A stretch of 64,000 nucleotides of DNA, taken from positions 34,961,712-35,025,711 of the forward strand of contig JAFMSR010000008.1 of NCBI GenBank assembly GCA_022818135.1. Direction: 5' to 3'. A model generated the notes under the pieces. It did no database searches, was not told the origin of the DNA, and saw only the letters and a list, made by a program, of their open reading frames with translations. The stretch is from Saxidomus purpurata. Lineage: Eukaryota; Mollusca; Bivalvia; Venerida; Veneridae. How positions within the stretch are numbered: the first letter of the stretch is position 1; each line of letters begins with the position of its first letter. Both the position numbers and the translations under genes were made by a program. Positions 15,184 through 49,558 of this stretch are shown here, piece after piece.

Positions 15184-16602
15184 CATGTATATGGAACGCC
15201 AAATCTACATATACTCAAATATTTGAAGAGGTTTTTAAATATTTGGAGAGCTCTTCAAATAATTTTAGAGGTCTCAATTTCAATTAGAGATATCTCCAAA
15301 TAATTATAGCGCACAAAAATTGTACTAGAGAGGTCTTTAAATATTTGGAGAGCTCTCTAAGTCAATTTTTGATATCAAAAATTGATTTAAAGCGTGCAAT
15401 GAATTAATTTTAGACATCTCTAATTCAATTGAAGGTATCAAAAATTAAGGTGTAATTCAGCTGTTTTTAAGAGATCTGCAATAGGATTGAAGAGGTCTCG
15501 AATTGATTTGAAGACATGTCTTATTGTTTTATAGCTCACTATAAATTAATTTATAGAGGTTTTTGAATTCCATTAGAGACCTCTCTAAATCAATTTGAGC
15601 GCGGTGAAATTCAATTTTAGATATCTTGAATTTGATGTTAATAAATGCCAAATCTACATAAACTAAAGTATTTGAAGAGGTCTTTAAATATTTTGAGAGC
15701 TCTGTAAAATATTTGGAGAGGTCTACAAATCAATTAAAGATATCAAAAATTCGCTTGTAGTGCGGTTCAAATCCATTGGTTAAGAGACATCTATAATTCA
15801 ATTAAAGAGGTCTCCAATTGAATTAGAGACCTCTGTAATTAACAGCACGGAAGAAACGAGATAATGATATCAAAAATTGATTTAGAGATGTCTCTAATTG
15901 TACCGCGCTTCACAATCCATTGACAACTTTGAAATAGAGAGCTCTCAAATGAAACAATTGAAGCGTGGTACAATTCAATTACAGACCTCTCAAAAACATT
16001 TTTTGATATCATTAATTTATTTCTTGCGTGCTGTAAAACAATAATAGAGGTATCCAATTCAAATGGAGACCTCTTCAATTGAATTATAGATGTCTCCTAA
16101 TTAATGGATTTATTCGCACTACAAACGAATTTTTGATATCTTTAATTGATTTGTAGACCTCTCCAAATATTTTACAGAGCTCTCCAAATATTTAAAGACC
16201 TCTTCAAATAATTGAGCATATGTAGATTTGGCATGAATTCAAGATATCTAAAATTGAATTTCACCGCGTTCAAATTGATTTAGAGAGGTCTCTATTTGAA
16301 TTCCAGACCTCTCTCATTTAATTTGTAGCGAGCTTTAAAACAATTAGAGAGGTCTTTAAAACAATTAGAGAGGTCTTCAAATCAATTAGATATCTCTTCA
16401 ATTCAATTACAGAGCTCTTAAAAACGGCTGAAATACACCTTAATTTTTGATATCTCTTATTAAATTGTAGAGGTCTACAATTCATTTATTGCGCGCTTTA
16501 AATCAAATTTTGATATCATTAATTGAATTAGAGAGCTCTCCAAATATTTAAAGACCTCTTCAAATATTTGAGTATATGTAGATTTGGCGTTCCATACATG
16601 TA
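15184..16602. mobile_element. foldback transposon FB1 (15190-16596) with 6-bp target duplication
   Basis: The left end TATGGAACGCC at 15190 and right end GGCGTTCCATA ending at 16596 are inverted. The outer 43 bases are identical and about 60 match with one difference. The direct repeat CATGTA flanks both ends (15184-15189, 16597-16602). The 1,407-bp element is one large imperfect hairpin: the left arm runs to about 15915 and the right arm from about 15955. The arms are degenerate 21-bp tandem units of the form AGGTCTCGAATTGATTTGAAG, rich in GAGCTC, GGTCTC and GATATC cores. The terminus itself recurs inside (GCCAAATCTACATA at 15646, inverse near 16222). No transposase is encoded. Confidence 0.9.
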
Positions 16603-18599: not shown

Positions 18600-18850
18600 T
18601 ATCTGGTCATGTTAGAATCGAAATAACATCCTTTTCAGCGTTGTTATCGTCTAATAAACAATAATTTGTCGTACTGATGCGCAGTTATAAACCACTTAGG
18701 CCTTCGGCCTTCGTGGCTAATTACTGCATATCAGTACTCCAAATCATTACTGTCAAGTATGTTACGCCTCTGTAGATAAAACGGCCCCCTGTACTCCAAA
18801 TCATTGTTTATTAACGACTAACATCGCTGGAACGGGTTTTATTTCCTAAC
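18600..18850. mobile_element. palindromic MITE-like element, copy A
   Basis: GTTAGAATCGAAATAACATCC and GTCTAATAAACAATAATTTG on the left answer CAAATCATTGTTTATTAACG...CGCTGGAACGGG on the right in inverted form. The copy at 61555-61745 is the same element in opposite orientation. An inner GGCCTTCGGCC hairpin sits near 18708. A later insertion or duplication lengthens the right arm (ACTCCAAATCATT occurs twice). Confidence 0.65.
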
Positions 18851-20321: not shown

Positions 20322-20409
20322 ATGGCAAAACTATATATCGCTACTGACTCGAGCACTCATGATTCGAAGAGCTTCAGTCGAACATCAGAAACAGACACAA
20401 AGCGCTTAT
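20322..20409 (+). pseudogene. B-box gene copy 1, 5' fragment
   Basis: ATG at 20322 opens 29 codons (MAKLYIATDSSTHD...TKRL) that match the start of the intact paralogue at 46727 (MAELCIAMDS...TNRL). The next codon is cut after its first base by the 18.6-kb insertion at 20410. The missing remainder resumes at 39013-39016 with the same four bases (TTAT), so the two halves are one gene. Upstream, AGAGAGCGAATTTAGAATA resembles the leader of copy 4 near 62694. The cut falls immediately before the first zinc-binding Cys of B-box 1. Confidence 0.9.
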
Positions 20410-20762
20410 AACACGCTATTTTATTTTATGAGAAAAATCTTGTAATTAAGAAAAATAGACGAAACCCGTGGGCAAAATTTTTGTTTTGCAGTTTTATGCA
20501 CCTTATCTTTGGAACAATGTTTAAACAAAGTGAAAGCAGACCTTACATAACTTCCTTTTAAGTAAGATTCAATAGTTGTTGTATGGTGATTGTATTAAGT
20601 CAGTATTCATTGACTGCAGGTATGGAAGAGGTGTGCTCTATATTTTTGTTATGCTGCAGCTTGCAACACAAGTGCAAAATGTCTTGTTTTAGTAAACAAG
20701 AGCTGCGAGTGTCTTCACATTGTCTACCCGTTTAACATGTCACACATACTTTGCTGCAGGCA

Positions 20763-21047
20763 TGCAGACTATGCATGGTATAGTCTGCAGCCCTACATAC
20801 TATGCATGGTATAGTCTGCAGACCTACATACTATGCATGGTATAGTCTGCAGCCCTACATACTATGCATGGTATAGTCTGCAGCCCTACATACTATGCAT
20901 GGTATAGTCTGCAGCCCTACATACTATGCATGGTATAGTCTGCAGACCTACATACTATGCATGGTATAGTCTGCAGCCCTACATACTATGCATGGTATAG
21001 TCTGCAGCCCTACATACTATGCATGGTATAGTCTGCAGACATGCAAT
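20763..21047 (+). repeat. left subterminal 31-bp array, 9 copies
   Basis: ACTATGCATGGTATAGTCTGCAG begins at 20768 and recurs every 31 bases to 21016, separated by CCCTACAT or ACCTACAT. A degraded copy follows near 21088. The core CTATGCATGGTATAG is an imperfect palindrome. The right end of the giant element has the same core inverted at 38600-38690, so this is a candidate transposase-binding array. Confidence 0.92.
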
Positions 21048-21940
21048 TACAGAATACCTGTTCTTTATGGTTGTACATATTTTGCTTCAGGCATGCAGAG
21101 TATGCATGGTACAAACTGCAGACAGACAATGACTTTAAGAAGTAAATGCAGTTACTTATTTCTTGTGTAAGGGATCTGGTTCATCAACTGCAAAATTGTA
21201 TACTACATAAAGTAGTTGGACTATTGATGCAGTGTATTATCTGCTCAATGTGACCAACGGATGTGCTGTTCTAAAATTGTCTGTACACTCCATGTGGCTG
21301 TCAATGAATTTGGAAATACGAATGTCTGACATAAGACCCACAGCGCACCCAAGGCACCGTGTCACAAATATAATGTGACGACAGGCACTAAGGATTGTAG
21401 AGCACTCACATTCTCAAATTGCCATTGCCTGAAAAGACGAGGCTTTTCCCTTTATGCTGTCAATTATGGCACTTCTAATATATATTGAGAGTTACAGACA
21501 GACTAAACCTCTTCATATACCTTGCCCACTAGACACCAGTTGATAATATTAGTTTGAAACATTTAAGTAAAACACACCTAGTCAAGCAAACTCAAAATTT
21601 AGATACATTCAACAAACAACAATTGCCCAACAAAGTTGTCATTTTTAATGTTTTTTATTCTATACTATAACACACACTACATTTCGTTCACTTACATTTT
21701 GCCCTCATGTATAATCCAATCAAATGCTTTACAATTTATAAAAAATTTAATACCACTAATTAGTTAAATTTGTTTTTGTAGGTAGGGCAAGTCTAAAAGG
21801 GACAAGCCTAACCCTCTATTTCTTCAATAAAAATACTGGGGTCGGCCGTAGACGCTCTTTCATGTTCGTTTCAACCCAGTTAAGCAAGATATATTATGGT
21901 ATGTAGGTGTAGGCTAGATGGATGTTCAGTAGAACACTTG

Positions 21941-22394
21941 TGTCGCCCTCTTACACTTTGTCAGAATAACCAGTAATTCTTTGACAAAATCTAAGTACAA
22001 AAAGGGGCATAACTCTGTCAAATATGGCCTTGACCAACAAAATTTTGCGGCATCACAACCCTTTGACATAAGCAATACAATTTGAAAGTTTGATGAAGAA
22101 ATCTTAAGAAATGGCAAAGTTATAGCCAACATTAAGTTTTTGTGACAAAATCTAAGTACTAAAAGGGGCATTACTCTGTTAAATATGACCTTGACCTACA
22201 AAATTGGCGGCATCACAACCCTTTTGACATAAGCAATCAATTTTGAAAGTTTGATAAAGACATCTTAAGATTTGGCAAAGTTATAGCAAAAATCTAAGTA
22301 TAAAATATAGGAATAACTGTTTCGTAATTTCTATATTTCCGACTGTATATACGGTTTTTAATGGTCGCAAATATTCCTAAAGGGCGACACAAAA
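21941..22394. mobile_element. inverted-repeat element with two 161-bp core units
   Basis: TGTCGCCCTCTTA at 21941 is answered by AAAGGGCGACA at about 22380-22391. Two head-to-tail units start GACAAAATCTAAGTAC at 21983 and 22144 and share GGCATCACAACCC and GGCAAAGTTATAGC. It is non-autonomous and lies inside the giant element. Confidence 0.6.
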
Positions 22395-22590
22395 ACTGTT
22401 AGTGAGTTATAGGTTAATATTACAGGAATTAAATTTTGTAAACAGACTTATTGTACTGTAGTATTGGCATTTCAAAGATTAAAGTTCATACAAAGCATAC
22501 CTAACTAGATACTTAATTAAAACATATCATTCTTGCATCTGCCTCTTAATTCTGAAATGTATTTTTTCACACTTTTGTTATATACTATAC

Positions 22591-22803
22591 TAATTTATTT
22601 ATTCTCGATTGCGAAACAAGTTATTACAACTTAGATTAATCGCTCTCGAGACTCATTCCAGATGGAATCAACCTCAGGGAGAGAGGGGGGAGGCAATGTG
22701 GAATTATTGTGTCTTGCCTAAGGACACTACCGACATGGCTATGGTAGGGATCGAACCCGGGGCCCTTCGATCCTGAGGCGAACGCGCTACCACTGCGCCA
22801 CTG
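22591..22803 (-). mobile_element. tRNA-derived SINE
   Basis: Read on the minus strand it starts near 22803 with GTGGCGCAGTGGTAGCGCG (A-box and D-loop). GGGTTCGATCCC (B-box) follows at about 22748-22759, then a non-tRNA body with TCCTTAGGCAAGACAC and an AAATAAATTA-type tail. The anticodon stem has a mismatch and the 3' acceptor half does not pair, so it is a SINE head, not a tRNA gene. Confidence 0.75.
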
Positions 22804-22872
22804 AAAATTTGAAACACACTTTTGTTGTACGTTAAATTATTGACAATCTTAAAGTTTCAGTTCATTTTGCTG

Positions 22873-22948
22873 CTAACTTCTAAAACACGACTGTCTTTCT
22901 AAACAATATTTAGGAACTTTCTTCACTCCCACGATATGACAATGGCTC
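22873..22948 (-). CDS. candidate terminal exon inside the giant element
   Basis: On the minus strand a pyrimidine tract and TTTCAG (22949-22954) precede an open stretch that encodes SHCHIVGVKKVPKYC and ends at a TAG after CFRS. It begins with one base that would complete a codon left by the candidate exon at 28198-28304, giving Trp. No family is recognised. Phase agreement by chance is one in three, so this is weak evidence. Confidence 0.25.
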
Positions 22949-23344
22949 CTGAAATGAAAAAAAAAAAATGTGGTAATAAGAGAATGTATGTAGAAAGAAA
23001 GTTGAACAATACATGCTATGATAACATGAGACTCAGTTGGCAATATGTTGCTCATCAGAGCATGCTTTATCTTATTTGATCAACATTCAATTCTATGAAG
23101 TACTGTTTTACTTTAGAACCAGTTACTGTTACTGTTTTGAGAGAAAAATGTTCAACCTATTAATGATTTGACTAAAGAAGCACCAAATCAGATGACAGAA
23201 GAAGTGATAATAGCGACCATTATGACCCATATTCAAAATTGGCATTGATATCATGAAGATAAATATTTTTAAATTTTTCCTGATGATTGCTGGTCAAATG
23301 TGACCCATGTGCTTATATTATAGTAAGTGAAGTTATAGAGTATA

Positions 23345-23775
23345 ATTGATGGTTTCGGTGTAAGATCACGTTATAATTTCACCAGTGGGCACCGAAAGTG
23401 ATATTTTCACGAGTGGCGCAGCCACGAGTGAAAATAACTACTTTTGGTGTTCACGAGTGAAATTAACGTGATATTACACTGATACCAACAATTTTTCTGT
23501 TTATTTTATGGTTAAAACTCTACTTTTATTGAGTTTGTTTCTATAAAACATTGAAAATCGCGGGAAACGCCATCAAAAAAACATAGCACAAATGACGTCA
23601 TTTTAACGACGTCATCGTCGTATGGTCTCCAGCGTTAATAACGCTCGGTATACCGTTTGGCGTAAATCCGGGCTAAAGATTGTAAAAACAGTGAAAAATA
23701 AAAATGGTAATCCACTGTTTCAAAACTGTGGATTATCACTTTTATTTCACTGAGAAACTCTATAATTCACTGGAA
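23345..23775 (+). mobile_element. dispersed element with CACGAGTGAAAAT motif, copy inside the giant element
   Basis: Same family as 19245-19665 (inverted) and 42015-42350 (same strand). It begins with GGTTTCGGTGTAAGATCACG, contains GGCGCAGCCACGAGTGAAAA and GACGTCATTTTAACGACGTC, and ends in ATTTCACTGAG...TTCACTGGAAAACATAAAATA. Confidence 0.7.
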
Positions 23776-23902
23776 AACATAAAATAAAGACTCATCTTCT
23801 GCAGACACTATATGAGCTATTTCAGCTAGAATAAAAATGGAAGCAAAATCTTTACATGAAATATTTAACGGAAGAGACAATTTAACTAAGAGAGATAATT
23901 AA

Positions 23903-26205
23903 CAAGAGGGCCATGCCAGACAGTGAACGATCCTAATAGCTCACTCTGGAGTTTTGCGCCATGTGAGCTAATAAGTGAAGGAATATGTGTAGTTGTTCAA
24001 GGCTGGACTTGTTTCTTTCCTCTTTTCTATTTCTATGAAACAAGGGGGCCTGAAGATCGCTCACGTGGGTCTGCGACTTATGACAATATGTGACCAAACT
24101 TCCAACTCTAAACTTTATATCATAACACAAACATTCTGTTTGACCTTGACAAGGCATAACTTTTGATCGATTTACATGATGATTTGGTTGCAAATGTCAC
24201 CTGTATGGCATACACAAGGTTTTCAACCGGATGACCTAGTTATTGAATTCAGAGTACCCATATTCATACTCCACCTACATTTCATCAAGACAATCATACT
24301 AACAAAGTTCCATGAAGATACAATGAACAAGAGGGCCATGATGGCCCCTTATCGCTCACCAGAGTACAACTGCTTTTAACAAAGTTGCTAGAAATCATCA
24401 AAACAACCTTTCTGACAAATTTCCAGGATATTTGGGCTGAAAATTGTTACCTCTACTGTGTTAAGGGGGGTCACTGGTGAGGTTTTGGATTTGTGCACTT
24501 CCGGAAATTTACATTTGTTGTATTTCAAAAATGATGATATAATTGGAAAAATCAATTAGGTAGTACTAAACTTGGGCACAATAGGAATATTTTAGGGTAA
24601 AAAAATTGAACATTTTTGGGAAAAACTATTTTGACCTCACATTTGGTGACTAAATTGACAAATTTTGTCATAATGCCAAACATGGGGGTAGGGGTACAAA
24701 AATAGTCATTTCTCAAAACCATTTAAGATATTTACATAATTCAAACTGTATTATTTATAAGAAGAATTGTTAGGGTATAAAAAATCATTAATAACTAGTT
24801 TATTTTGCAGTTCTTTGGAACAGACATATGCCGTTATATCTCAAAGCTCGCCGAAATCTAAAAAACACATTTTTTGTCAGTTTTTATTGAATTTCTTTCT
24901 TATATGCACATTGACCCCCATTTTTTATTTTTACATTCTAAAACAAAGGTTTTAATCAAACTGCAGACAAAATATCTGAAAAAGCTTGTTACTCCTTTAT
25001 CATGAAATATTCATTTATCAAAAATTGAAAAAATGAATTTTAGTAAAGTGGGTGGGGTAATAATAAGGAGTGTAATATTTATTCAGATGATGATAGAAAT
25101 ACCACAATCTCTAATTTTTCATCCTAAAGTATAATATACTACATAAGAAAAGATTAGAAAGTGATATCCATTCTGAAACATACACCACATACATAAACGT
25201 TTATAATACCAAAATTCTAGCTAATTCTGCATTAAGCACCTTGACCTGATAGTGTATCAGTCACTAAATATTAATATTGTGAAAAAGTTAAGTCATTGAC
25301 CCATCATTATTTTTCCAGAAATTAACTAGCAAAATGTTAGTCTCCATAAAAAACAGGGTCAATAAAATTTCTTGTTATTTTGAATTTCAGCAGTGACCCC
25401 CGTTAACAAGGTTTTTCCACATTTGGGCTGTGTGACCTAGTTTTTGACCCCAGGTGACCCATATTCGAACTTGAGCTAGAAATCATCTTAACAGCCTTTC
25501 CAACAAATTTCCAGGATATTAGGGCTGAAAATGTTACCTCTAGGGTGTTAACAAGGTTTTTCCATATTTGGGCTTGTGACCTAGTTTTTGACCCCAGGTG
25601 ACCCATATTCGAACTTGAGCTAGAAATCATCTTAACAGCCTTTCCAACAAATTTCCAGGATATTAGGGCTGAAAATGTTACCTCTAGGGTGTTAACAAGG
25701 TTTTTCCATATTTGGGCTTGTGACCTAGTTTTTGACCCCAGATGACCCATATTGAAACTTGAGCTAGAAATCATCTTAACAACTTTCTGACATATTTCCA
25801 TGATATTTGGGCTGAAAATGTTACCTCTAGAGTGTTAACAAGGTTTTTCCATATTTGGGCTGTGTGACCTAGTTTTTGACCCCAGGTGACCCATATTAAA
25901 ACTTGAGCTAGAAATCAACCAAACAACCTTTCTGACAAATTGCCAGGATATTTGGACTGAAACAGTAGCCTCTAGAGCCTTAACAAGATTTTTCTATTTT
26001 TAGGTCATGTGACCCAGTTTTTCATCAGAGATGACCCATATTTGAACTCGTCTGAGTAATTACTGGGACAAACATCCTGACCAAGTTTCATGACAATTGA
26101 GGCAAAAATGTGACCAATAGAGTGTTAACGAACTAAGTGGGGACGGACAACGGACATTCATTGATGCTAATAGCTCACCCTGAGCCAGCTCAGGTGAGCT
26201 AAAGA
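23903..26205. mobile_element. nested bivalve dispersed elements with ~147-bp core array
   Basis: AACAAGAGGGCCATG hairpin ends occur at 23903 and 24325 (GAGGGCCATGATGGCCCC, then ATCGCTCACC). The far end has GACGGACAACGGAC and AGCTCACCCTGAGCCAGCTCAGGTGAGCT at about 26170-26200. From 25398 to about 26130, five units of roughly 145 bases repeat AAGGTTTTTCCATATTTGGG, GTGACCTAGTTTTTGACCCC and GAGCTAGAAATCATC. The 132-codon minus-strand frame at 25403-25801 is this array. The element is inverted relative to the one at 930-2415. Confidence 0.7.
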
Positions 26206-27599
26206 TGCAACCTCTATTGCATACACAAGGTTTTTCTATGATTTGACTGTGTAACCTAGTTTTTCACCCCAGATGACCGATATTTGATCTCGACCTAAAT
26301 TTCATCAAGGGGATCATACTGACAAAGTTTCATGAAAATCAAATGAAAAATGAAAACTCAAATGCATACACAAGGTTTTTATATGATTTGTCCTTGTGAC
26401 CTAGTTTCTGACCCAAGATGTCCCACATTCGAACATGGTGTTGTGCATGACACAGGGTATGAGTAGCAATTTTTTCAAGCTTTTTCAAAATACTGACCAT
26501 GACCTTGACCAACTCGCCCAAAAAAAGAAAGGGATCATCTACATGTTGCAGGCAATATTCTGAGCAAGTCTGATGAAAGCTGAATGAAAATTGTTACATG
26601 CAAAGTGCTATCAAGGAAAAGCTAACAGAGGTCATTGTGACCTTGACTTTTGACCCGCTGACCTCCTACATATTGAAGGCAACCTTCTGAGAAAGTTTCA
26701 TGATAGTCAAATTTGAAAATTTTGACCTGTACAGTGTTACAAAGGAAAAATTTACGAACAGATGTATGGACAAGTCAACAGACAAACCACCATGGCATAA
26801 GTTCTGCCGAACGTTACCTCTAAAAATCACTACTTTTATTTGTTGTGAGTAAAATTCTCACGTATAGGTCATAATTTTTTTTTATAAAACAACATGATTA
26901 GGTACCTGGAAAGACACACCAATTGTTTTTTTTTTTCTGAAATTAGCTGCAAACAGAAGCCCTCCATGTCTGCTACATTGTCAAACAATTCACTTGTAAT
27001 TTACTGAAAATAAAAAGAAAAAAATTTCAGCATTGCAACTTACACATTATATATATCACTTTCAATGAACTTTCAAGTTTACATCACCTTCACTGGACTT
27101 TATGTTTACATAGAAAAAAATTACGTGGACATTCCAGGAAAACAAGATTTTTCTATCAAATAATGTTATAGAAAAGTTCCTCAGAGTATTCATGTTTATA
27201 AGCAACACCGTAAGAAAATACTATACAACTTTTAAAATAATAATAGTAAGGAATTTGCTAGCTTACAGATTTAGGAACAAAGAAAGTACTTATGTCTGTA
27301 TTTGAATTTAAAAGTGGATATTACACTAAAAATAATATTCAACTGACCATCAATTGACCAGTATATACAACAATAGAGGGAACAGACAAAACAGCCAAAA
27401 TTGACTTACATTTACCTCCAAAGGGTAGATTTAATTGTACATTACCCTTATTTCATCAATTATAAATTTTACCACATTGGAGAATTAAGTCATTTTTTGC
27501 ATCAAAACATACAAAAAAATATCGCAAAATATTCAATTGACCAGTATTGACCACAATGGGAGAAAATTTTCAATTAACCACATAGAGAGTGGCTAGATG
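26206..27599. other. further decayed core repeats, then AT-rich sequence
   Basis: From 26206 to about 26830 the text resembles the preceding core units (CACAAGGTTTTT, GTGACCTAGTTT, CATGAAAATCAAATG). After that I see no gene. A possible exon near 26905-26990 can be read on either strand but the readings conflict, so it is not called. Confidence 0.4.
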
Positions 27600-27843
27600 A
27601 AACATTCTTGCATATCGGATCGGCATTTCCGGTGATTTTGCCCATGCCTACTTTAAAGTGCAAGACGGTATGCAAGAAAAAGTTTCCACCATGAGACACT
27701 TGGCTCAAATGGAAATATCCGTCACCTCGGGTAACTGTTTTACGGGAACTCGGCAGAGCCTCGTTCCCGCCAAAACAGTTACCCTCGGTGACGGATATTT
27801 CGATCTGAACCTTGTGCTCATGACAGAAACTATTAACCAATAC
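27600..27843 (+). mobile_element. palindromic MITE-like repeat, copy inside the giant element
   Basis: Shares CTTGCATATCGGAT.GGCATTTCC, AAGTGCAAGACGGTATGCAAG and GGTGACGGATATTTCGATCTG with 17956-18428. The centre is a strong hairpin: GAAATATCCGTCACCTCGGG (27710 on) pairs with CCCTCGGTGACGGATATTTC (27781-27800). Confidence 0.75.
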
Positions 27844-28197
27844 TGATGTATATAATATTGACCACTCTGGAGGTATTGACCAGGAGATCTAGCTGAACTT
27901 TACTTTTTATTCTTAATGCTATCAATTTGAATTGTTAATTCATTATTCATATTAAGACAACCAAAAGTGATCACAAAATATTCATTTTACCAGCAATCGG
28001 CCATATATTGACCACTTTGGGATTATTGACTGGGGTGGCTTTGACCACACAACATTGCAAATAAGACCATGTATATTTATGTTTGTTCTGAAAATCACCA
28101 TCAAACTTGCTACACATGTAACATAATGCATTATATCAATTCCGAAATGAAAGAGAAACAAGTCTTCAATTGTTTTTAAGCAAGTTAACTCACATAC

Positions 28198-28304
28198 CAA
28201 TGTGTTTTCCATGCAGCTTCAGAATAGTTGGCTTCAGAGCAGCAGTTGTCAGGCAGAGCAGGATGTGAAAATGGTTGAGATGACACTACAAAATGCATGC
28301 TTTC
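28198..28304 (-). CDS. candidate internal exon inside the giant element
   Basis: Read on the minus strand, acceptor AATTTTCAG (28305 on) precedes a 107-bp open block encoding ESMHFVVSSQPFSHPALPDN and ending ...AAWKTH plus two bases, with donor GTATGTGAG at 28197-28189. Both splice signals are good. No family is recognised. It may join the candidate terminal exon at 22873-22948 in phase. Whether it is cargo, part of a transposase gene or chance is open. Confidence 0.3.
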
Positions 28305-28370
28305 CTGAAAATTTAGTACAAAACTTAAAATAACATAGTTACAGAAACAAGGTCTGAGTATACACAGCAA

Positions 28371-31084
28371 TTTTCTCTTGTTTACATATATCTTTCTTAT
28401 TTACATTTTTCTCCCCTGAAATTGGTACACAACATCTTCTTGGTGGGTCATCTAAGAATATTTCTTTTTCATGTTACAGAGCAGTGTTTAATGTTGGGAT
28501 GGTCAATCAGAATTCAGGCTTTGAGTATACAAATTTACAGTATAAATGATTGAATGTTAAACTGCCAATTCTAACACAATCTGCATATAGGTGTATAGTG
28601 AAAAAAAGTTTAATCTTTTGTTTCAATATACAAATGTATAAGTATCTATGGGAGCTGCCAGGTCCCTGTGGCTAGCATCAAATGTGACAGCAAATATTTA
28701 TATAGAAATAATAGAACACCAACAACATAATATAATAAAATATGCAAAATTAATAATAATTAGTGAAACAATTTATTAATTACATCTATATCATAAAATT
28801 CTTCAAAACATTCTAAAAAGCTTGAAAATTCGCATCAAAGTCTTTTAACATTAACTGAATAATTTCTAAACGTTCTGTTTTGAAGTGCATGCAACATGTT
28901 CTGTCATCATGGTGACTGGTCATGGAGGTGAAATCATTTACAATTTTGGGAGGTTAAATGACTGGGGTATGCACTGGCAGATACAGAGAAGGCATGTCTG
29001 GGGGGCTGACTCGGGGTGGGTTAGGGAGGGGTGTTCCCTCCAGACAGGAAAAAAATTGAGCTGTGTCTATGAAATGGTACAATTTCCAGCATCATATTTC
29101 ACCATCTCTCCAAACTTGCAACTGCAAAGTGTTCAGGTGGCAACAAAAACAATGTCAAATACACAATCTTTAATATAAGACATAGATAGATGTAAATACT
29201 AAATGTTCACTTATGTGATAAGAGAATATACTGTCACTGTGTCTATTATTAACGAGGACAAAAGTACCAGCTCGAGCAAAAATGTATCTGCAGACTTGGC
29301 TGGGGAGGAGGGTCAACTGCAGCCCTAAAGCCCAGCAGGCACGACACATCCGCCAGTCTTTATTCATTTGGCGTTTCAGTGTGACCCCTTTCACAGATCT
29401 GACTGTCACACCTGTAGAACTGTAGCTAGTCTAACTATTTCGACTTCGAAGGCAAACCGAATTTATAGGCTGATATTTTATAGGTGCGACAGTTATAAAA
29501 TATCAGATCTGTGAAAGGGGTCACACTGAAACGCCAAATTAATTAGGCTAAACTGTAGCACAGATGCAAGACACACCATCTTTTTCTTTGCATATATATT
29601 ACTCTAAATAATTGTACTCAGCTGGTGAATATCGTTATATTTTTTACTAGGGGCTATCCAGCCTCCGAGCGAAGATAACTATAAAATGTCCGTATGTAAA
29701 ATGGGTCTGCGTTTGTAGTCTTACTATTGAGACTAACTACAATGTAGGACTCTAGCCAGTAAAATGTCAACCTGTAAAATCGGTCTACCTTCAAAGTGTA
29801 AATAGTAAGACTAAACTTGCAACTATCATAATCATGATGAAAATCCTAGTTACACACCTATTTGGGTCGTAATAGCATTTATTGTTACCAGGTACGTGAA
29901 AACCCTAAATGTTTACAAATGGCGCCAGCAATTCAAAAGGGAGGTAACCACCAGATGGCAGAATAGTAGATATGCCCTCGTACATAAGACAGTTCGTACT
30001 CTGTCGTCTTTACAGACATAAAGGGGACCACAGACACCGTCAGCCATCTTCACAAAAACTATTGAGAATGTAGATCTGGTTCCGACTTCTCAAAAATTAA
30101 ATGCCGCTAAAGTGATTACATCTATTTTTACTTTGATAAGGCGGTCGGAAAATGATGATGGGGCAGTGGCCGACAAGCCTTCTACGGTAATGGCGTGTAC
30201 TGTACTGTAGATCTAATTAATGACAATAACGGACACCAAGTTGTAGATCTAAACGAAAATAGATGTTTTATCTTGTGAATATTTAGCATCGACCAAGAAA
30301 CGTTGACTCACCTTTATAATTTGTCTTATCCGAAGAAAACAACAATTTACAACCACTTGGAGAATTCTATGCTGATTGTTCTTCTGTTGATCCCCAGTGA
30401 TCCTAGAGTCTATTATTTCTCCCTGCAAACTTGTTTCTCGATGCCATGTCCAACCTCAACAGCGTTTAGAATAAGTGTAGATGACAATGACGTCATAGCG
30501 TTTTCGTCATAGGGCTTTGACGTCATAAAATAGAACGTGCTACCTTTCCTATAGCTTTGATGTCACTGATCCAGAGTAAACAAATGTTGAGTGATTTGAT
30601 ATTTTGGCAGTTTCAAAAAAATCAGCAGTGAAACTAGATCTCCGGAAATTTCAGGTAATAATCTAAAGTTTACAATACTTTTGTGTACTTCGCCATACTT
30701 GATAAAAACGAACCTGGTAGATCTAAAGAATGCTAAGTTGCTAACCAGCAACAACAGTGTCAATCATCAATGTTGCCATAGCATGATCATGATGATAGAT
30801 CAACAACTTAACACTGTCTTGGCCAACAATGAAACAACAAGAAAATAGATCTCTATATTAAATATGAAAAAGCCCTAGCGCAGATTAGTTGGGCTAATGA
30901 TCTACCTATAGTGAAAAAATGACCAGTCTAAGAAATAGTGACTAACTTTCAGATCTGAAAGGTAGCAAATGTCTTCATATTTTATGAGATTATCTCAGAT
31001 ATGGTAAACAGCTTCTTGTTCCATAATACAACTAAATATCATTACGATTTGAAAGTAGATCCAGGGGTCACTGAAATGGGTTCG
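28371..31084. other. gene-poor interior of the giant element, with a small inverted-repeat element
   Basis: No convincing gene. A small palindrome occupies 29366-29539: ATTTGGCGTTTCAGTGTGAC...CACAGATCTGA on the left is answered by TCAGATCTGTG...GTCACACTGAAACGCCAAAT on the right, about 37 bp per arm. A CTCACC at 30308-30313 would be a donor on the minus strand, but no open exon accompanies it. Confidence 0.45.
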
Positions 31085-31565
31085 GCTGGTATCAAGTGGT
31101 TTCACCCCCTAGTCGTTTCACCCCTACTTTAGTCATTTCACCTCCTAGTCATTTCACCCCCTATTGTAATTACTATACTGATTAAGAATGTGTGAAATGT
31201 TCTATTGTTATATTGATTGATATAATTTCCAAAGGTGTTTTTCAATCACAGAGTACTTTAATCAAAATAACTATAGAATATTTAGCACATAATGTAATCA
31301 GTACATCACTATGAAGAAATAAGATAGGAAATAAATGTTTCGATTTTTCTAAAAAAGTTAAATGATTTTGAAAACATATGTTGAAAATTTGCTGTCTGTG
31401 TTTTTGAAAGACCTTGTTTAAATATTGAACAGGATTCATTTTTAAATAAAACAATAAAAAAATTCATATTTCATAATAATTTTGGGGGGTGAATCATCTA
31501 GGGTTTTGGGAGGTGAAATGACTAGGGGTGAAACGACTAGGGGATGAAACCACTGGTATTCGTTC
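31085..31565. mobile_element. inverted-repeat element with repeated TAGTCATTTCACCCC motif
   Basis: The left arm has four spaced copies of a GTTTCACCCCCTAGTC / ATTTCACCTCCTAGTC motif (31100-31162). The right arm has the complements (GGTGAAATGACTAGGGGTG, AAACGACTAGGGG) at 31485-31550. Outer matches are AAGTGGTTTCA and TGAAACCACT. The loop is AT-rich and non-coding. Confidence 0.65.
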
Positions 31566-33921
31566 AGCTGAGTATCTGTTACTTTAATTATGCAAAACAG
31601 GGGTGCCTGTGATAAACAGAACAATAAAATTTTGTTGGAATAGTTTCCACTTTATTGTACATCACACAAATAGAGGACAGATATAACAGTAGTAATTCTT
31701 AAAGAGAATAGATTTAAAATATGTTATACATTCTACTCGTCATTTCATTGCCGGTTGAACAGTTCTAAACTTCCGGTCAAAAGCTAGCTTATACAGCTGC
31801 GCTGAAACACATCTATACATGTAGGTTTATCTACATGTACATACATTTGTTTTTGTATACGCAGTGATTGTTGTATAAAGGACATGTTTGACAAAACAGT
31901 TGGCTGCGATAAGGCCAAAAAAAATATCTGTGTTTCGGGTAACCCGACCCTACCTGGCGAAACCCCCGACCCTAGAGTTTTTTTTTTCAAAGTAAAAAAA
32001 TGTGAAGTGTCCCTTCCCTATGTTATGCATGTAGACTAACTAGCATTTTTGGACCGTTACCCTAAACACAGATTGTTCTTTTCCAACCTATAGAATGTTT
32101 TCACTTTTCACTTTAAAAAAAGAAGCTTTGTCCCTACCCTATCTAACATTTTTGGGACTGTTGCCCTAAACACACATTTTTTTTTTTGCGTTATGAGTTT
32201 CTTTTATCAAAGGGGCTATACACATTTGATTTTTTATTTATACATACATTATACTACATTTTTTTTGTATGTTTTAAAAAATGCAAGCATGCCTTGCCCC
32301 TTTGTCTTTTGTGGCAGTGACTGCCAGTGAGCATCATATATGTACATTGACATATCTAATTAGTGATTGTATATTCTTCCACAGAATTGGTTGACCATTG
32401 ATGTCAGAGCTGCTGTGAAAGAGGATAGCCAAACAAGGAAACTAAAGGACATTTAGCTGATATTTAGACTGTAGCGGGGTAATAGCAGTTTCGTAAAATG
32501 TAAAGATTACATTCAAATAATTAAAGGTAACTTAGTACTATAATAGTGTTTCTATTCAGAAATCGGGTTTTTAAAAGTTTTTCAAGCAAAGAAGGGTCAC
32601 TTCAGCTGGTAAGACAGCAGCTGCTGTCTTGGTAACATAAGAACTTCATATAATTTTACATCCAGGTTGCTAAGGCGTAAAAAACACATGTTTGTTTCAG
32701 GTTTCCCGACCTACCCTATTTTTTTTGCCCCGACCCTAGACTATTTTTTGCGTATTAATATTTTTTTAGCATAAATTCATTAAGATCTATGTTGAATTTG
32801 GTTTGTTTGAGAATAAACAAATTCCCCCCCCAAATCCTTACCTACCTACCCTATTTTTTTGGGGGGGGCATGAAACCTAAAACAAACATTTTTTTTTGCG
32901 TAATGGGACTTTAACCAATACTATAATACTTACAAGATAAATTTATTGATTTTGCTATAAAATTTCTGTATTTCAGTGTTGCATCTTTAACAGTTTCTTA
33001 TGTGGCTTTTTTTTATTCATTTCAGGTAAAAACAACAAGACCGTGAATGAAGTGTTTTTTTGAGTACTTAAAGGCTTTTTTTTAACTTAAAGCTAAATAA
33101 CAATGTTTTGTGAAGAATGAACTGGTTTCGAGAAACATCAATGCACAACTGACCAAATATTCTTGTTGAAAAAACTGGTGGATATGTATTTAACAGGCAA
33201 CAAAAAACTGTTTTGCGCCTTTGTAGATAACAGCAAAGCAAAGCAACTATTAAGTTGTATTTTATCGATGGTGAATGTTTTTAGCTAACCGTTAAAGGTG
33301 GTCAATCATATTTAAGCAACATTTGATGACAATTTTTAATTTTTGTATATTCTGTTAGAGATTTATCTAAGGAACAAGAAGACCCATTACAAAGAGTTAG
33401 ATCCCTATTCGAAATTTACATTTTATTTACTTTTATAAAATTTTGTTATTACTCCACTTTATTAATTTGAAAGTAATTAAAAAGTTGATTATTTCTTTTT
33501 TATTTCAGTATAATTTCTACTTTTACATTTGCATCGGATAGATATACAAATATTTTAACATTCTGAACCAAAAGGCAAGTTTTAAAACTATGTGTAGCTT
33601 CTGAATTCATTTATTTCCAATCTATTTTGGGTGCGCAACCAAGATAGGTAAAGGGAGGTAATAATATTTTTTCAAACTTGCATTTCTAATGAATTCCATC
33701 TAAATAATTATATAATTTTTAATGCAAACATTTTACAACTATAATACAATAGGTTTTATATTTATATCTTTCCTTAGGCAAAGTATGTGTATCAAATTTG
33801 TACTTATGATAAAATAACTCTTTTTTTCTCATTCTAGAGAAAATCAAATTTTAAAAATACCTGCAGTGAAAATCTTACTTGATTTAAGCGCTAAGTGAAC
33901 ATAAATGAGTGTAATTGATCA
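31566..33921. other. AT-rich interior with two CCCGACCCTA-type repeat fragments
   Basis: AACCCGACCCTACCTGG near 31940 and CCCGACCTACCCTATTTTTTTTGCCCCGACCCTAG near 32705-32744 belong to one dispersed repeat, with poly-T and C/G homopolymers. A possible last exon at 32376-32449 (acceptor TTCCACAG, then NWLTIDVRAAVKEDS and a stop) is too short to call. Confidence 0.4.
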
Positions 33922-36304
33922 GTGGCCGAGTGCATTATTAAAAGCGGTCGTAGGCCTACGTCCGGCTTATCTAGAGCGTAGATAACGGTCGCAAAATTTA
34001 ATCGGAGTGCATAAACGAGACGTAGCGTAAGTCAGGTAGTAAATCTAGCACGAAAGTCACGACTGCTATGGAGTAGGCGTAACTACAGCGTAGTTGAATT
34101 TTTATATACATTATCATATCAAATATCAGTAAAGGCAATGTTTTGGGTGTAACTGTCTGTTGGAGACATCTGGTTTTGTCATGGTTGTCCATCTATAGAT
34201 GTCTGAACATCGTTTGTCTGTAATATAAGCGTTTCCAGTGATATCTCTTGACCTAATTGGAGGTTTTTGAACAAAATTTCAAGATATCAAGTCGATATAC
34301 GGAACTCATGTTTAATCCAGCTCGGTTCGAGGGCAAGGCAACAAACGTTTCCGTTCTGTCTTTCATGAAATCCTTAAAGAGAAATGAAAAAACTTCACCT
34401 GATCGAGACGATATTCAGACATCTATATATCAGTTCAGGGTAATGGACGATGGTTCAACGGCTAATTCTAGAGACATGTAAATCAATCTATCAAAGGAAA
34501 GACCTTGAACAACTACAATTCAACGGTCGCAAAAATTTAATCCGAGTGCATAAACGAGACGAAGGGTAAGTCAAGTAGTAAATCTAGCACGAAAGTCACG
34601 ACTGCTATGGAGTAGGCGTAACTATATAAAGCGTACTTGAATTTTTATATACTTTTATCATGTCAAATATCAGTAAAGGCAATATTTTTGGTGTAATAGT
34701 CTGTTGGAGACATATGGTTTTGTCTTGGGGTGTCCATCTGTTTGCTCGTCTGTCTGTAATATAGCGTTTCAAGTGATATCTCTTGAACTACTCGGTTTTA
34801 GAACAAAATTTAAAGATATCAAGTCGATATAAAGAACTCCTGTTTCATCCGGCTCGGTTCGAGGGTAAGGCAACATTTGGCTTTAAATCTGTCTTCTGTC
34901 TTCCATGAAAGCCTTAAAGTAATTAAAAAACTTCACCTGATCGAGGCGATGCCAAGACATCTATAGATCAGTTCAGGGTTATGGACACGGTCACACCGGG
35001 TACAACGGTTAAATTCGAGAGACATATAAATCAATCTATGAAAGGAAAGCGTATACTCAGACTTTTAACATTTCGGTATTTAAAAGTAGGTGAAAAGGTT
35101 AAAATATCATACATATATTCTATTTTATAATTTAAGTAACATATCTTTCGGCACACTTTCTTCTATCCTTAAGACCACTTGATTAAAAAAAATTAACTAA
35201 CATAATGATAAGTCAAATAAAAGAAGGACAACAATTTATTAAAAAGGGGATTTTACATTACAAAACTCAAATGCATACTTCCTGTTATCATAATTAAAAA
35301 AAATGTTAGGCTTCCACGATCCAGACATTCAAACTAGGTCAAACACACTCACAGATCAAATTGGTCACCGCGATTTGGCCTACTTTTTGGCAATCAATCA
35401 AATTCAATCTTTGGCTAAAACTGACTGGAAATTGCAATCAGGTAAATCTCTCCTCTTTTCGGCTTCAAAATTTTACTTTCTAGGCATGAAGGGAGACACG
35501 CCGGGGTCTCATCCAAAACATGAGCTGAAAATTTAGCTTTTGGACGGACCTTGATAAAATCACTTTCAAATCAAATCAAATCAAATCAACTCAGACTTTT
35601 AACAACTACAGTTTGTACTGATTATATGTACTTACATGTAATTGGTTTGATCTAAAGAAAACGTTTGAAGAAGTTCGAGTCTCAAGTACAGTTTACATAG
35701 TTGTGAAACAAACAGACAGACCGACTGCCAAGCCAAACAACTGCCGAAACTGATTTCTAAATACCCTTTCCCATATACCCTCTTAAAATAAAATTACAGC
35801 GAAATCCGTATAGGGGCCTTCTTTTGTCAACTTCGCTTATGAAATCCTTGTTAACTAGACGCAATATATGTTATAGTTCAACTATAAAACGTTGTAACAT
35901 TCAGCATAATCTTTCTTTATACGACTATTAAAATAGATATTTCATTTGAATAGTGAAGAGCTAGATCTAATACTTTTAGTTACATGTTGCAACTATTTCA
36001 GAGTTCATTTTAAATCTAAGAAATTGTTAAGTACCTAGACATGTTGATATTCTCGTATTCATACAAAACAGGCAATTTTAAATTTTAGAAATACTTTTTG
36101 TAAAAAAAGTGTTATATTTCTAGATATGTTCCCATTATTTAAAACAGATTATCTTAACATATGCATATAAAATCTCATGCATTGAAACAAGAAATACAAT
36201 GATTTTGCACTCGCCTTAAAACCCCGTTGTACGACAGGATTAGTTACGCCAGCGCTGACCGTTTACGACAGCACAATCTACGCCTTCTTTATGCACTCGG
36301 CCAC
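33922..36304. mobile_element. putative composite element with GTGGCCGAGTGCAT ends and a 540-bp internal duplication
   Basis: GTGGCCGAGTGCAT at 33923 is answered by ATGCACTCGGCCAC at about 36290-36303. Inside, two direct units about 539 bp apart begin near 33986 and 34525. They share GTGCATAAACGAGACG, CGAAAGTCACGACTGC, GTCTGTTGGAGACAT and GCTCGGTTCGAGGG. The 74-codon frame at 34257-34481 lies in the first unit and is broken in the second. A CAAAT microsatellite sits near 35565-35588. No target duplication was found. Confidence 0.45.
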
Positions 36305-36465
36305 AGATGTTTAAGTTTCAAACAAATCTGTAACATGGCCAAAATCTGTTTGACCACCTTTAGTTTAATATATATGATCAGGTTTGTCATGTGTTCAAAT
36401 TGATTGAAAGTGTTTGATTTTTTCTAGTCTAACAGGGTGGAAATCTATCTCCTGTTTTAATTTAA

Positions 36466-36895
36466 TTACTAGTTCACCTGGCACTTTGTGCCAGGTTGAG
36501 CTTAACGGATGAATAATTGTCCGTCGTCCGTCGACATCTCCTCTGAATACCAATGTTGATGAAACTTGGCAGGGATGTTCCTTGCCTGAAGCTCTACCAA
36601 AGTTGCTCAAAGAATTCCATTCCATGCAGAACTCTGGTTGCTATGGCAACAATTAATGTTCCCCTATTTAGTTTGTTCAAATCAAGCCCCTTGGATCAAA
36701 ATTGACCACGCCTGTGTGTGTGAGGGGGTCCCTTTATTTTATATAGAGTTATAGGAAAATCCAAGCTTCCAATGAGTTCCTATAGCAACCACTAACTTCT
36801 CAAGCAACCATTGACTCTCTTAGCAGCAAGTGCATTATAACTCAGATGAGCGATATAGTGCCATCATGGCCCTCTTGTTCTTAAATTACCCAAAT
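36466..36895 (+). mobile_element. short bivalve dispersed element, near complete
   Basis: Left hairpin TTCACCTGGCACTTTGTGCCAGGTTGAGCTT (36471-36501), then GTCCGTCGTCCGTCGACATC. Right end GATGAGCGATATAGTGCCATCATGGCCCTCTTGTT (36845-36880). It is the same family as 930-2415 but without an expanded core array. Confidence 0.7.
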
Positions 36896-37009
36896 GAGTT
36901 TATTTTACAAGAGCACGATAGTCCATAATTTCTGTCAAAGAAGGTCAATTAAGTAGTAAGTGATTATGATGTAGAAGTCTTCTTTAGATATTGATGTTGA
37001 CATAGTTTT

Positions 37010-38115
37010 TTCAGCTAAAATGCTCATGGTTTATTGTGATCGCTTGATGTCAGTCTTCCGTCTGTCTGTCTACATCTGACCTTGTGTATGCAATAAAATC
37101 TGCTTATTTTCATTGGATCTAGGTGAAACTTGGTCAGAATGACAGCCTTGATAAAATCTTTTTTGAGTTCGAATAGGATCATCTGGGGTCAAAAACTGGG
37201 TCACGGTGTCAAATCAAAGAAAAACCTTGTCACTCACATGTGTATGCAATAGAGGTTGCATTTATCTTTTTTTCGTTCGAATTTTCGAATTCAAGTATGG
37301 GTCATTTGGGGTCGAAAACTTTGTCATGGGGTAAAATCATTGAAAAACATTGTGTATGCAATAGAGATTGCATTTTTAATTGGATCTTCATGAAACTTGG
37401 TCAGAATGACTGCCTTAATAACTCGAGGCCACATTGTTATATGGATCATCTGGGCTAAAGAACTAAGTCATGGGGTCAAATCATAGAAAACCCCTGTGAA
37501 TGCAATATAGGTTGCATATGTTTTTGGATTTTTATGAAACTTGGTCAGAATGGCTATCTTGGTGTATTCTAGATAGAGTTTGCATATTGGTCATCTGGGT
37601 TCAAAACTTAGGTCACAGGGTCAAATCATAGCAACCACTTGTGAATGCATTGAATCTTCATGAAACTTGGACATAATGGTTATCTTAATACAATCAAGAT
37701 CAAGGTTGAATGTGGTTCATCTGGGGTCAGAAACTAGGTCACAGATTAAAAACCATGTGTATGTCATACATATGACATTTACAACCCATCCTCATGTAAA
37801 TTTGTCAGCAGTACGGGTCAAACAGAATGTTTGTGTTAATGATATTTAGTTTAGGGCTGAACTTTAGTCAAATATTGTCATAAGTATGTCCCTGGTGAGC
37901 GATTAAGGGCCATCATGGCCTATGTTTCATAAGATCTTTATGAAACTTGGTCAGAATGACTGTCTTAAAGAAATTTAGGTTGAGTTTGAATATGGGTCAT
38001 TTTGGGTTTAAATGTCACAAGGTATAATCAAAGAAAAACCATATTTATCATGCAATAGAAGTAGCATTTTTCATTGGATCTTCATAAACTTTGAGTCGGA
38101 TGTTTTCCTTGATAA
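37010..38115 (+). mobile_element. bivalve dispersed element with ~130-140-bp core repeats
   Basis: Repeated phrases TGAAACTTGGTCAGAATG, GGGTCATCTGGGGTC and AAAACCTTGTGTATGCAATAG recur from about 37080 to 38110. GTGAGCGATTAAGGGCCATCATGGCC at about 37894-37920 is its usual terminal hairpin, with more core-like text after it. GTCTGTCTGTCTAC near 37061 is typical of the left part. Confidence 0.65.
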
Positions 38116-38599
38116 AATCATACTGTAGAATCGAACAGAAGGTGCATGTATAATTGTGTACTTTAAATAATTGAACGCACACCACTATCGCCAAATATAT
38201 GTGTTAAGGTCTGTCGGGGCTTGCACAAAAATTAAGGTTGGTTTACAGCTTTTTATCTCTTAGATACTTGAAAATTGGTATTTTTGGTCTTATTTTGTTC
38301 ATACACTAGAAGAAATTATTGAATAAGAGGCCTACGGGGTATTCGTTATTTGCACTATTTGTATAACCTACACTGTTAACTTCTGGAAATAAAGAAATTA
38401 TTACTGTAACAGCAGTTGTTATTATTATCTTTACAGAAAAAGCAATGTACACTGTAGAAGGAGTAACAACACCTTTGCATTGAATTAACACAGCTGTGCA
38501 GACCCTATATACCAAGCATGCAATTAAAGACTGTATACAATTTACACAAACTACAGAACTGTCAAATATACTGCAGAAAATACAATGTATACTGTGCAG

Positions 38600-38690
38600 A
38601 CTATACCATGCATTCTCTGCAGGTCTGCAGACTATACCATGCATACTCTGCATGTGTGCAGACTATACCATGCATAGTCTGCAGGTCTGC
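38600..38690 (-). repeat. right subterminal array of the giant element, 3 copies
   Basis: GCAGACTATACCATGCAT occurs three times (about 38598, 38627, 38658), the reverse complement of the core in the left array at 20763-21047. Spacing is about 29-31 bases. Confidence 0.88.
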
Positions 38691-39012
38691 TTGCATCTGC
38701 TTTCATCTGTTTCAAGGCAGAGGTGCATTTGTTCATCTTTACCTTGCTTATAATCAGAATGCGTGCAAATCTGTTGAGGTGCTCTTTTAATGGACTGCGT
38801 CTTGCCAGACCTTGATTCATTGATTATTTGATATGCAACACTTCAGATTACATACAAACTCAGGGTTGGCGTGAGTTATACAGGCAGAAAGGCTGTCCTA
38901 CTAATTAATATCCTCATGACCGCTGTCAAACTGCTACTATGCGACTAGTTCAAGCAATCTGGAAATTTTTTCTTAATTTCAAGATTTTTCTCATAAAAAA
39001 AAATAGCGTGTT

Positions 39013-40590
39013 TTATGTGAACCTTGTTTATTTGACAATACAGAGCAGGAGGTATCTGCTTTCTGTACTGTTTGTACAGAATTCCTATGCAAGGATTGTA
39101 CTAGAGATCACAAAAAGAACAAGGTCACGCGAATTCATTGTATCCTGGAAGGAAAAGATGTTCCGAGTGACTCCAAAGCTTTCAAAATGATGAAGAAAAT
39201 GACATCCTGTTCGAAACACCCAGACGTCGTTGTAACGTACAAATGTGAAGACCACAATAATTTCATATGCATTACGTGCTTAGCAGTGGAACACAGAAAG
39301 TGTGACCATGTATCGGAAATATGCGCAATAGGCAATGGAGAGGTAAAAAATGATGACGTTTCAGAACTTAAACAAAAGCGGAGAGAACTGCGTCAATGGA
39401 CTATTTCTATTGGATCAGTAGAAGAGGAGACAATCAAATGTCTTTATTCGGAACAGAACAGGCTAAAAACTGAACGAACGCAATTCGTTAATTCTATCAT
39501 TGAAGAACTGCATGAGATGGACGAAAGATGCAAGATAGAAACGGAGCAGTTGGTTTCGAAAGAAATTGCTGTTTTACAACAGAGTGTAACTAAATTGAAT
39601 AAAGCCAAAGTTGAACAAGAAGTTGAAGATAATCTCCTAGACACAACCCTTCGATTCGGAAATAAAACAGAAACGTCTGTCATATTATCCTTACTGTTGA
39701 AGAAAACAGAGACGTTGGAAACTGAATACAACGAGCACAGTGACGTGAAGCATGTTCAACTAAACTTTGAACAGAATGAGTTTTTGGCTCAAATCAAGAG
39801 CCTAGGAAAGGTTAATGTTGTCAGTGTTGATGCGCATAGAGATGTTCTGCGAAGAAAAGAGGCGCAACTTGAAAAGACAAGCGACGAAGAGATTGAGTCC
39901 TCCGGTGAAAGCAATTTGAAATGTACCGACAACCCCAAGCCAAGAGACAAAATAAGGAACGATCTTGAAGAAACTTCAACCACGCACTTGCCATTGATAC
40001 GACGTCGGGTAAAGCAGTGCCATTCTACATCCAGTTAGAAATAAAACAGATCAGCGGACATGTTCGGTTTTGGGATCGGTGTTACTCTCAAATGACCAAA
40101 TAGTTATTATTGACAGCAATAACAGAAAAATAAAGGTATTTAATTCAAACTCTTCTTTTGTCAGTGAGTTAAGACTCGACGAAACCCCAAAAGACATCTG
40201 CTACCTCGAACAAAGGAGAGTTGCAGTCCTGTTTGATAATGAGAAGAGTGTAAAGGTATACTTAATTGATACGGACAAAGTAGTGTACTGATGAATCGCT
40301 TTGGAATGAGCATTTCACACTACAAAGATTGGGAGACACTTATCCTTTGTTCAGATATACCGTACTTTTCTACTGAACAGTTTCTTGAAATTCAGGTACG
40401 AAATTTATTGGACGGGAGAAAGATAACTATTTCTGTTGACCACCTCCTGAAAAAGAGTTTTTGTAACACTTACCATGTCCACTGTGCGAATGGAAACGAG
40501 TTGTATATATCGCATAATCAAAAGTTTACCTGTTTCAAAATACTTTCGAAGTTAACCGGTCTGAAATTGATAGAGCAATGGTTTTATAAA

Positions 40591-48649: not shown

Positions 48650-49558
48650 TGTAAAAGCAGGACCACATACGGCATTGATTCTGTGATATCGGCCGCATTA
48701 ACATTAAACTATGGGAAATAAATAAAAGAAAAGTTCTGATGTAGCTAGAATTAAAATCGCTTTTTCATTCTGTGCATTAATTTGAATTACGTGTAGTATG
48801 TTAACACAAACAAATCAAATTTAGCAACGCTGAAGACCGCCTGTTATGCATTCACTGATAACATTTCTAAAGGTTACCGATGTAAATAAAATATTCTTTC
48901 AAACGACAAACACAAGTATCCATGCGACACAAGTTCAACCTGTTCAGGAAAATTTGATATCTTTTGTATGTTAAAATTATTGTAGCTAATAATGTTGTGT
49001 GGCCCGTCGTGCATATGTGATTTGCTTTAAACGAAATCTCCCCTGAAACTGCAGAACGGTGATTAAATTTGGAAAGACTGTTCTATGACGTTTTTATTCG
49101 TTTCTTTCTGCTAATAAGAGAATAGTTAAACAAAAGTTCTTTCTTACAAGCTATCTACTTGAGGAAACGGTCTGACCTCATGTTGTAGACTTAGCAGTAC
49201 ATGTAGGAGATATTTGAGAGGAAAGTTACATAGATCTTTTGGATTAGTTAAAAAAGGTCACCTGGTCCCATAACACTTGATGAATTCTGGCAAAATTACG
49301 CCATTGTTTGGACTAATTAAATGCTGGTTTAAGTTTTGCGGGCATGTTGCTATCGACGTACCATTACATTATACTAGGTTGATTCTTAAGAGTTTTGACG
49401 TGAAGAAACAGTCTGAAAGGAACATACTTGCAACGTTCATGTTTTTGTTAAACTTTTTCCCCGTTTCTTGATAAAGTTATCATCTTAACAGATACTGGAA
49501 TGAAAGTTTACACAAGCATTTGAGGTGGATAAAAAGTTCAACGGGCCAAAAAAACACA
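48650..49558 (+). repeat. 3' flank of copy 2 up to the foldback insertion
   Basis: Homologous to 40896-41780 and 59767-60665. The homology stops at AACGGGCCAAAA near 49540-49550 and resumes after 50860, which brackets the foldback element FB2. Confidence 0.85.
48717..48726 (+). terminator. overlapping AATAAA poly(A) signals of copy 2
   Basis: Two overlapping AATAAA hexamers start 68 bases after the stop codon. The same AAATAAATAAAAG text follows copy 3 (about 59824). Confidence 0.55.

Follow-up and report, generated by a model that had tools for sequence, protein, structure and literature searches.

An 18.6-kb inverted-repeat insertion in a B-box gene of Saxidomus purpurata and its family of giant elements in which no gene was found

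DNA transposons with terminal inverted repeats (TIRs) that do not encode their own transposase are a known kind of element, comprising deletion and cargo derivatives and the miniature inverted-repeat transposable elements (MITEs). Non-autonomous DNA transposons are generally thought to be short, and transposition efficiency drops with length. Elements longer than 10 kb have traditionally been called giant, and material trapped between two long terminal repeats (LTRs) rarely exceeds 10 kb, according to the portion of PMC6431247 that deals with such elements. An insert of 18,603 bp (positions 20410-39012, between 20409 and 39013) was found in a 64,000-nucleotide stretch of the bivalve Saxidomus purpurata, hereafter the window (contig JAFMSR010000008.1, or C8, positions 34961712-35025711 of the 1.13-Gb host assembly G000), where it interrupts one member of a tandem array of B-box genes. 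This insert is very probably one copy of a young, giant, non-autonomous family of cut-and-paste DNA transposons mobilized in trans. Like the non-autonomous TIR transposons already described, the family has TIRs, target-site duplications (TSDs) of fixed length, many copies, no transposase in the parts read and derivatives with internal deletions; unlike them, its members are 15-30 kb long (47.7 kb in one pair of ends) and share their interior. The titles and abstracts of a limited collection of literature on giant or non-autonomous DNA transposons yielded no very young family this large in which no gene had been found.

Several described groups resemble the family in one trait or another. Subterminal repeats are known from En/Spm, where the transposase binds to them; Academ elements contain an XPG_I domain, Ginger elements have TGT-type ends, and Sola elements produce a 4-bp TSD. 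Chapaev transposons have TSDs of 3-4 bp and invariable CAC termini, as stated in the section of PMC4079192 on that group. The family under study is similar to Chapaev and the wider CMC group in its 4-bp TSD, in CAC/GTG near the ends and in its subterminal repeats, but it ends in AACAC...GTGTT and so lacks outermost CAC...GTG termini; the AA/TT are missing from the empty site (see below) and thus belong to the insert. The pertinent section of PMC10045372 gives TSDs of 3-4 bp for AcademX, 4 bp for Ginger1, 4-5 bp for Ginger2, 6 bp for Polinton, 4-10 bp for MuDR/IS256 and 0-4 bp for PHIS, and CC..GG termini for piggyBac. The 4-bp TSD falls within the range of AcademX, but no nuclease or transposase was found in the parts of the family read, and a profile search of the genome for XPG_I gave three matches (8 candidates, 8 scored), none of them inside a listed pair of ends. 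The same TSD length would suit Ginger1 and Ginger2, but TGT-type ends are absent and no integrase match was obtained in the insert. The likeness to piggyBac and Kolobok consists in 4-bp duplications with TTAA in 3 of 24 cases, whereas the target is not strictly TTAA and the termini are AACACGC rather than the CC..GG of piggyBac. Maverick/Polinton elements differ in TSD length, and their polymerase B and integrase had no Pfam match among the frames of the insert. MuDR/IS256, PHIS and Sola are comparable on TSD length alone, since their ranges include 4 bp. Among elements with LTRs, the large retrotransposon derivatives (LARDs) carry long, not necessarily coding cargo that is moved in trans, as described in part of PMC6431247; the family shares long, possibly non-coding cargo and, presumably, movement in trans with LARDs, but has no LTRs, and its ends are inverted instead of direct.

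The insert was confirmed as one giant TIR insertion. Its flanks, when joined, align without gaps at the site with B-box paralogues at ~46727, 57902 and 62657, and relative to these uninterrupted genes the extra bases are the insert and the second TTAT only. A single insertion event had been claimed in the original prediction, made from the letters of this stretch, on the grounds of a TTAT duplication, near-perfect 46-bp inverted ends (AACACGC) and an uninterrupted paralogue at 46727; all of this was upheld (Table 1), and two further paralogues were found intact at the site. Inverted pairs of 46-mers with at least 44 matches are not unique in such repeat-rich DNA, a scan of the window having returned 11 groups of pairs. 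The pair bounding the insert is taken as the ends of an element because it coincides with the TSD and the empty site and recurs in the assembly. No empty allele of the window site was found in the assembly (6 candidates, 6 scored), paralogues only; the predicted sequence of such an allele at this site is ...CGCTTATGTG... Near the two ends of the insert, arrays of a 31-bp repeat, absent from the earlier account, run in opposite directions.

The first 30 nt of the end, searched with up to three mismatches, gave 103 matches in the assembly (100 of these places listed) as against none for the reversed control, and no exact match to this motif was found in viral or prokaryotic contig collections. 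With a 195-bp probe from the left end, the best 40 of 185 candidates were all at least 96% identical, many of them starting exactly at TIR base 1, and the same identity was reached by the best 40 of 187 candidates for the right-end probe. The best 40 of 1841 candidates for an interior probe (33409-33709) were all 99-100% identical, and 16 of these 40 fall inside 24 giant pairs of ends. These pairs were obtained from 121 distinct ends among the matches listed (both end probes, the end motif and 16 further ends) by joining an opening to a closing end less than 60 kb away. At least 25 element pairs resulted, one of 2.4 kb and 24 of ~15.3-47.7 kb (23 of the 24 below 30 kb), lengths that may include the duplications, a few bases each. 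Half of the giant pairs (12 of 24) lie on chromosome-sized contigs. The 47.7-kb pair, on C17, is known from its ends and matching TTAC flanks alone. An absence of other copies with the same paired ends, named at the outset as fatal to the insertion, is therefore not the case.

Target-site duplications were scored in the flanks of the 25 pairs and of a 2,105-bp derivative on C8, 26 elements altogether. A perfect 4-bp TSD was present in 24 of the 26 and extended to a fifth base in none, whereas 29 of 650 mismatched flank pairings agreed in the chance control; together with the 25 pairs, these duplications bear out the description of the insert as a giant TIR element. The target is palindromic, like CAC-TTAA-GTG, a consensus that is the analysts' own summary. 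At the 24 sites, A occupies position -2 in 20 and T the mirror position in 21, G directly follows the duplication in 16, and the core is TTAA-like, with exact TTAA in three.

Interiors were compared over the first 10 kb of 20 copies, several of them with assembly gaps, and four of these comparisons were extended. The copy on C3 is complete (~15.3 kb, TSD ATAT) and matches most of the window interior in the same order; the nearly complete copy on C9, although gapped, stays colinear as far as element base 18271. In a 2,158-column alignment of 13 copies the mean pairwise substitution was 1.28%. The lowest divergence, 0.09%, separates L017 (C19, 23.7 kb) from L019 (C4 at 59.0 Mb, 29.5 kb), which have a further insertion in common. 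Fairly recent movement, already suspected from the inverted ends, accords with this mean and with such a minimum between two chromosomes; on sequence divergence, the family can be regarded as young. Copies at unrelated flanks share segments that other copies lack (Table 1), which argues that the enlarged giant moved as a whole. One of these segments, 27605-27834, has related sequence at two other places of the window, close to 3167 and 18254.

Table 1. Positions in the window of the giant element, its ends and internal segments, and the interrupted B-box gene
Feature	Position	Strand	Remark
Whole giant non-coding element	20410..39012	+	Ends and much of interior common to other copies
Left target-site duplication TTAT	20406..20409	.	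Three paralogues read across the empty site
Right target-site duplication TTAT	39013..39016	.	Flank alignment with paralogues
Left terminal inverted repeat, outer end AACACGC	20410..20455	+	44/46 against right end
Right terminal inverted repeat	38967..39012	-	46 bp, two mismatches against left end
Left subterminal array, 9.2 units of 31 bp	20754..21038	+	Starts 344 bp from left end
Right subterminal array, 3.1 units, inverted copy of left 31-bp repeat	38595..38690	-	Starts 322 bp from right end
Nested insertion, 12-bp duplication CACACTTTTGTT	22580..22814 (235 bp)	+	Absent in 18/18 scorable of 20 copies
Segment common to window, L009 (C4, 10.2 Mb) and L011 (C15, 30.9 Mb)	23336..23787	+	Absent in the other 16 scored; 2 not scorable
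Segment common to window, L009, L011 and, by alignment, L021	24465..25401	+	12 copies lack it or have a replacement
Tandem array, 4.5 units of 144 bp	25402..26048	+	Holds longest open frame of insert (143 aa)
Segment common to window, L009 and L011	27605..27834	+	Absent in 11 scored copies and, by alignment, L010
5' part of broken B-box gene	20322..20411	+	29 codons from ATG, then stop formed at left junction
3' part of broken B-box gene	39017..40038	+	Within 343-aa open frame from 39007; B-box above Pfam cut-off

By motif count, copies have between 0 and 80 units in the left 31-bp array, the zero belonging to one that is cut by an assembly gap. The copy L021 (C15:44226124, minus strand) has ~80 units in this proposed binding region, as against nine in the window copy. 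Another local difference was noted at window 31094-31561 (element 10685-11152), a stretch with similar inverted ends (TGGTTTCA.CCCCTAG) that is absent in the four other copies covering the site; it has the appearance of a short TIR element nested in the giant.

Interrupted gap repair after excision is established as a source of deletion derivatives in other cut-and-paste elements, and two shortened members were found here. In the 2,105-bp derivative on C8, which has the TSD TAAA, 0.9 kb from the left of the giant is joined to 1.2 kb from its right. The 2.4-kb derivative on C35 has the TSD TTGA and retains 2.2 kb from the left and, on the other side, ~0.1 kb that includes the right terminal repeat. 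Since both have duplications of their own, movement does not require most of the interior in cis, and the structure of the C35 derivative suggests that it can do without the right subterminal array. A sister subfamily has ends (...CTGAG) roughly 5-9% different, in pairs of 14.7-20.8 kb by position. Pairs recognized by position alone include 14.7 kb on C342, 16.1 kb on C27 and 768 bp on C4, as well as 16.3 kb on C1117 and on C1559, the last two probably allelic. The sister ends were considered as those of an autonomous element and rejected as such, the one on C8 being the 2.1-kb deletion derivative and four others keeping the giant interior over the 2.3 kb read.

The longest open frame of the insert, inside the 144-bp tandem array, has 143 amino acids (aa). 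In the other copies as read the longest has 147 aa (L023) and lies past an assembly gap, in sequence beyond the match to the element; none of the copies showed a frame reaching 150 aa over the parts read. Pfam gave no convincing match for 123 of the 129 stop-to-stop frames of at least 45 aa in the insert, the other six being located in the 31-bp and 144-bp tandem arrays, nor for 20 longer frames of the insert and ten frames from other copies. The best match, that of one frame to a FokI cleavage domain at E=0.0016, was rejected because 123 frames had been tested, after which its value is ~0.2. Among 325 distinct short indels, 40 have lengths divisible by three, and variable sites follow no consistent codon phase; these results argue against a conserved gene within the sequence read. 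The extra segments of L012/L022 and of L017/L019/L028 were examined as candidate coding regions and rejected as far as read. Rfam found no match and ARAGORN no transfer RNA in the window. The earlier statement that no transposase can be recognized thus stands for the window copy, and for the others as far as read; of the "few weak exons" it mentioned, the short reading frames do exist but none has a convincing Pfam match.

Movement of the family might proceed as follows. A transposase encoded elsewhere, most likely of the DDE type, would bind the 31-bp repeats of the inverted subterminal arrays as well as the TIRs, cut at AACACGC...GCGTGTT and join the ends to target sites resembling CAC-TTAA-GTG, with a stagger of 4 bp. 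The interior would be cargo, grown by nested insertion to 15-30 kb (47.7 kb in one pair) without movement being stopped, and the enlarged unit would then have been amplified as a whole. Mobilization in trans is inferred, as the helper was not identified.

A number of observations weigh against this explanation. The helper transposase was not found in the sequence read, and it could lie in the unread right halves or in unread copies, given that 16 of the 20 copies fetched were read for the first 10 kb alone. L009 (C4) holds 5,962 N, and the copy on C11 contains 500 N and has no match past element base 12273. Among the segments that differ between copies, insertion versus deletion is settled for 22580-22814 only. 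Two of the 26 flank pairs have no perfect duplication: in C1300 TTTA faces ATTA, and C365, where nothing matches, possibly joins ends of two different elements. Contigs with common flanks (C12/C2698, C342/C814, C1117/C1559 and C59/C223) are probably allelic duplicates representing alternative haplotypes, so that independent insertions are fewer than the raw counts. A separate case is that of L011 and L026, at 30.9 and 36.0 Mb of C15, which have an identical left flank 5 Mb apart and point to a segmental duplication or an assembly error.

The alternative closest to mobilization in trans, and compatible with it, is that unread copies of the same family carry the transposase, the helper then being a family member and the window copy an internal replacement derivative. 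Room for such a gene exists, because most copies were read in their left 10 kb only and those of 23-47 kb hold unread DNA, and a sister subfamily of divergent ends and similar span is at hand. No long frame appeared in the parts read, however, four sister copies keep to the giant interior over their first 2.3 kb, and the three XPG_I matches of the genome are all outside the listed pairs, so that this alternative is considered possible but rather unlikely. Decay of an autonomous giant element (Maverick/Polinton, Academ or similar), with the coding region eroded beyond recognition, would explain both a size typical of such elements and the failure to find helper genes, and might be read into the FokI match. 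With 13 copies at the mean divergence given above, there has been too little change to erode genes after amplification; no frame reached 150 aa in the parts read, the TSD is 4 bp instead of the 6 bp given for Polinton in part of PMC10045372, and the FokI value is unremarkable after 123 tests. Such decay is accordingly judged improbable.

The interior might also have been acquired after the fact, a short TIR element having inserted first and been filled later by unrelated nested insertions, of which the insertion at 22580-22814, present in the window copy alone among those scored, would be an example. Most of the interior and several variable segments occur in the same order at other loci, though, and the complete C3 copy, aligned in order with most of the window interior, contradicts later filling, leaving it very little likelihood. 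Hardly any credence is given to an assembly chimera of unrelated halves: some other copies do have assembly gaps or non-matching joins, but the window locus has its TSD and empty site, and like architecture occurs at other loci. Mobilization of a giant non-autonomous element in trans is thus the explanation preferred here. A further proposal, held tentatively and regarded as doubtful, is that AACACGC termini, 4-bp duplications and a ten-base palindromic target (CAC-TTAA-GTG) define an undescribed cut-and-paste superfamily or deep lineage, the most successful members of which are giant non-coding elements of 15-48 kb. If this were true, length would restrict the cargo of DNA transposons far less than commonly supposed, and giants without coding sequence would multiply faster than their helper.

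A unit of 15-30 kb in which no gene was found, paired at roughly two dozen sites of which some may be allelic, and diverging very little, offers a natural test of how cut-and-paste movement is controlled by length, subterminal repeats and target palindromes. In a single hop, close to 20 kb of repeats can enter a gene, and nested insertions would then be amplified along with their carrier, which gives genomes a possible way of gaining DNA.

At the window locus, the insertion truncated the reading frame of one B-box gene in the array. The intact paralogue at 46700 has as its closest relatives two uncharacterised proteins of Mercenaria mercenaria, with 35 and 33% identity (4 matches). Five related B-box genes, the interrupted one included, were observed in tandem at window 20322-63753 and at C8:35033883, just outside the window. 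The frames of the copies at 57860 and 62671 are shortened too, and several members of the array may be decaying.

Other repeats were noted in the window. At 10461-12002, in DNA of strong GC skew, a short tandem repeat (THDQHCQQY-like) makes up long open frames on the minus strand, and a repetitive open frame at 49475-50840 (RVIMST..HVILSIQ) forms near-perfect inverted repeats with the DNA just downstream. Three groups of inverted repeat pairs matching at 45-46 of 46 positions lie within 1.4 kb at 15187-16600, in a foldback- or palindrome-like arrangement. An inverted pair with a perfect 46-base stretch, at 18604 and 61694, flanks the giant insert on both sides at a distance of 43 kb from each other.

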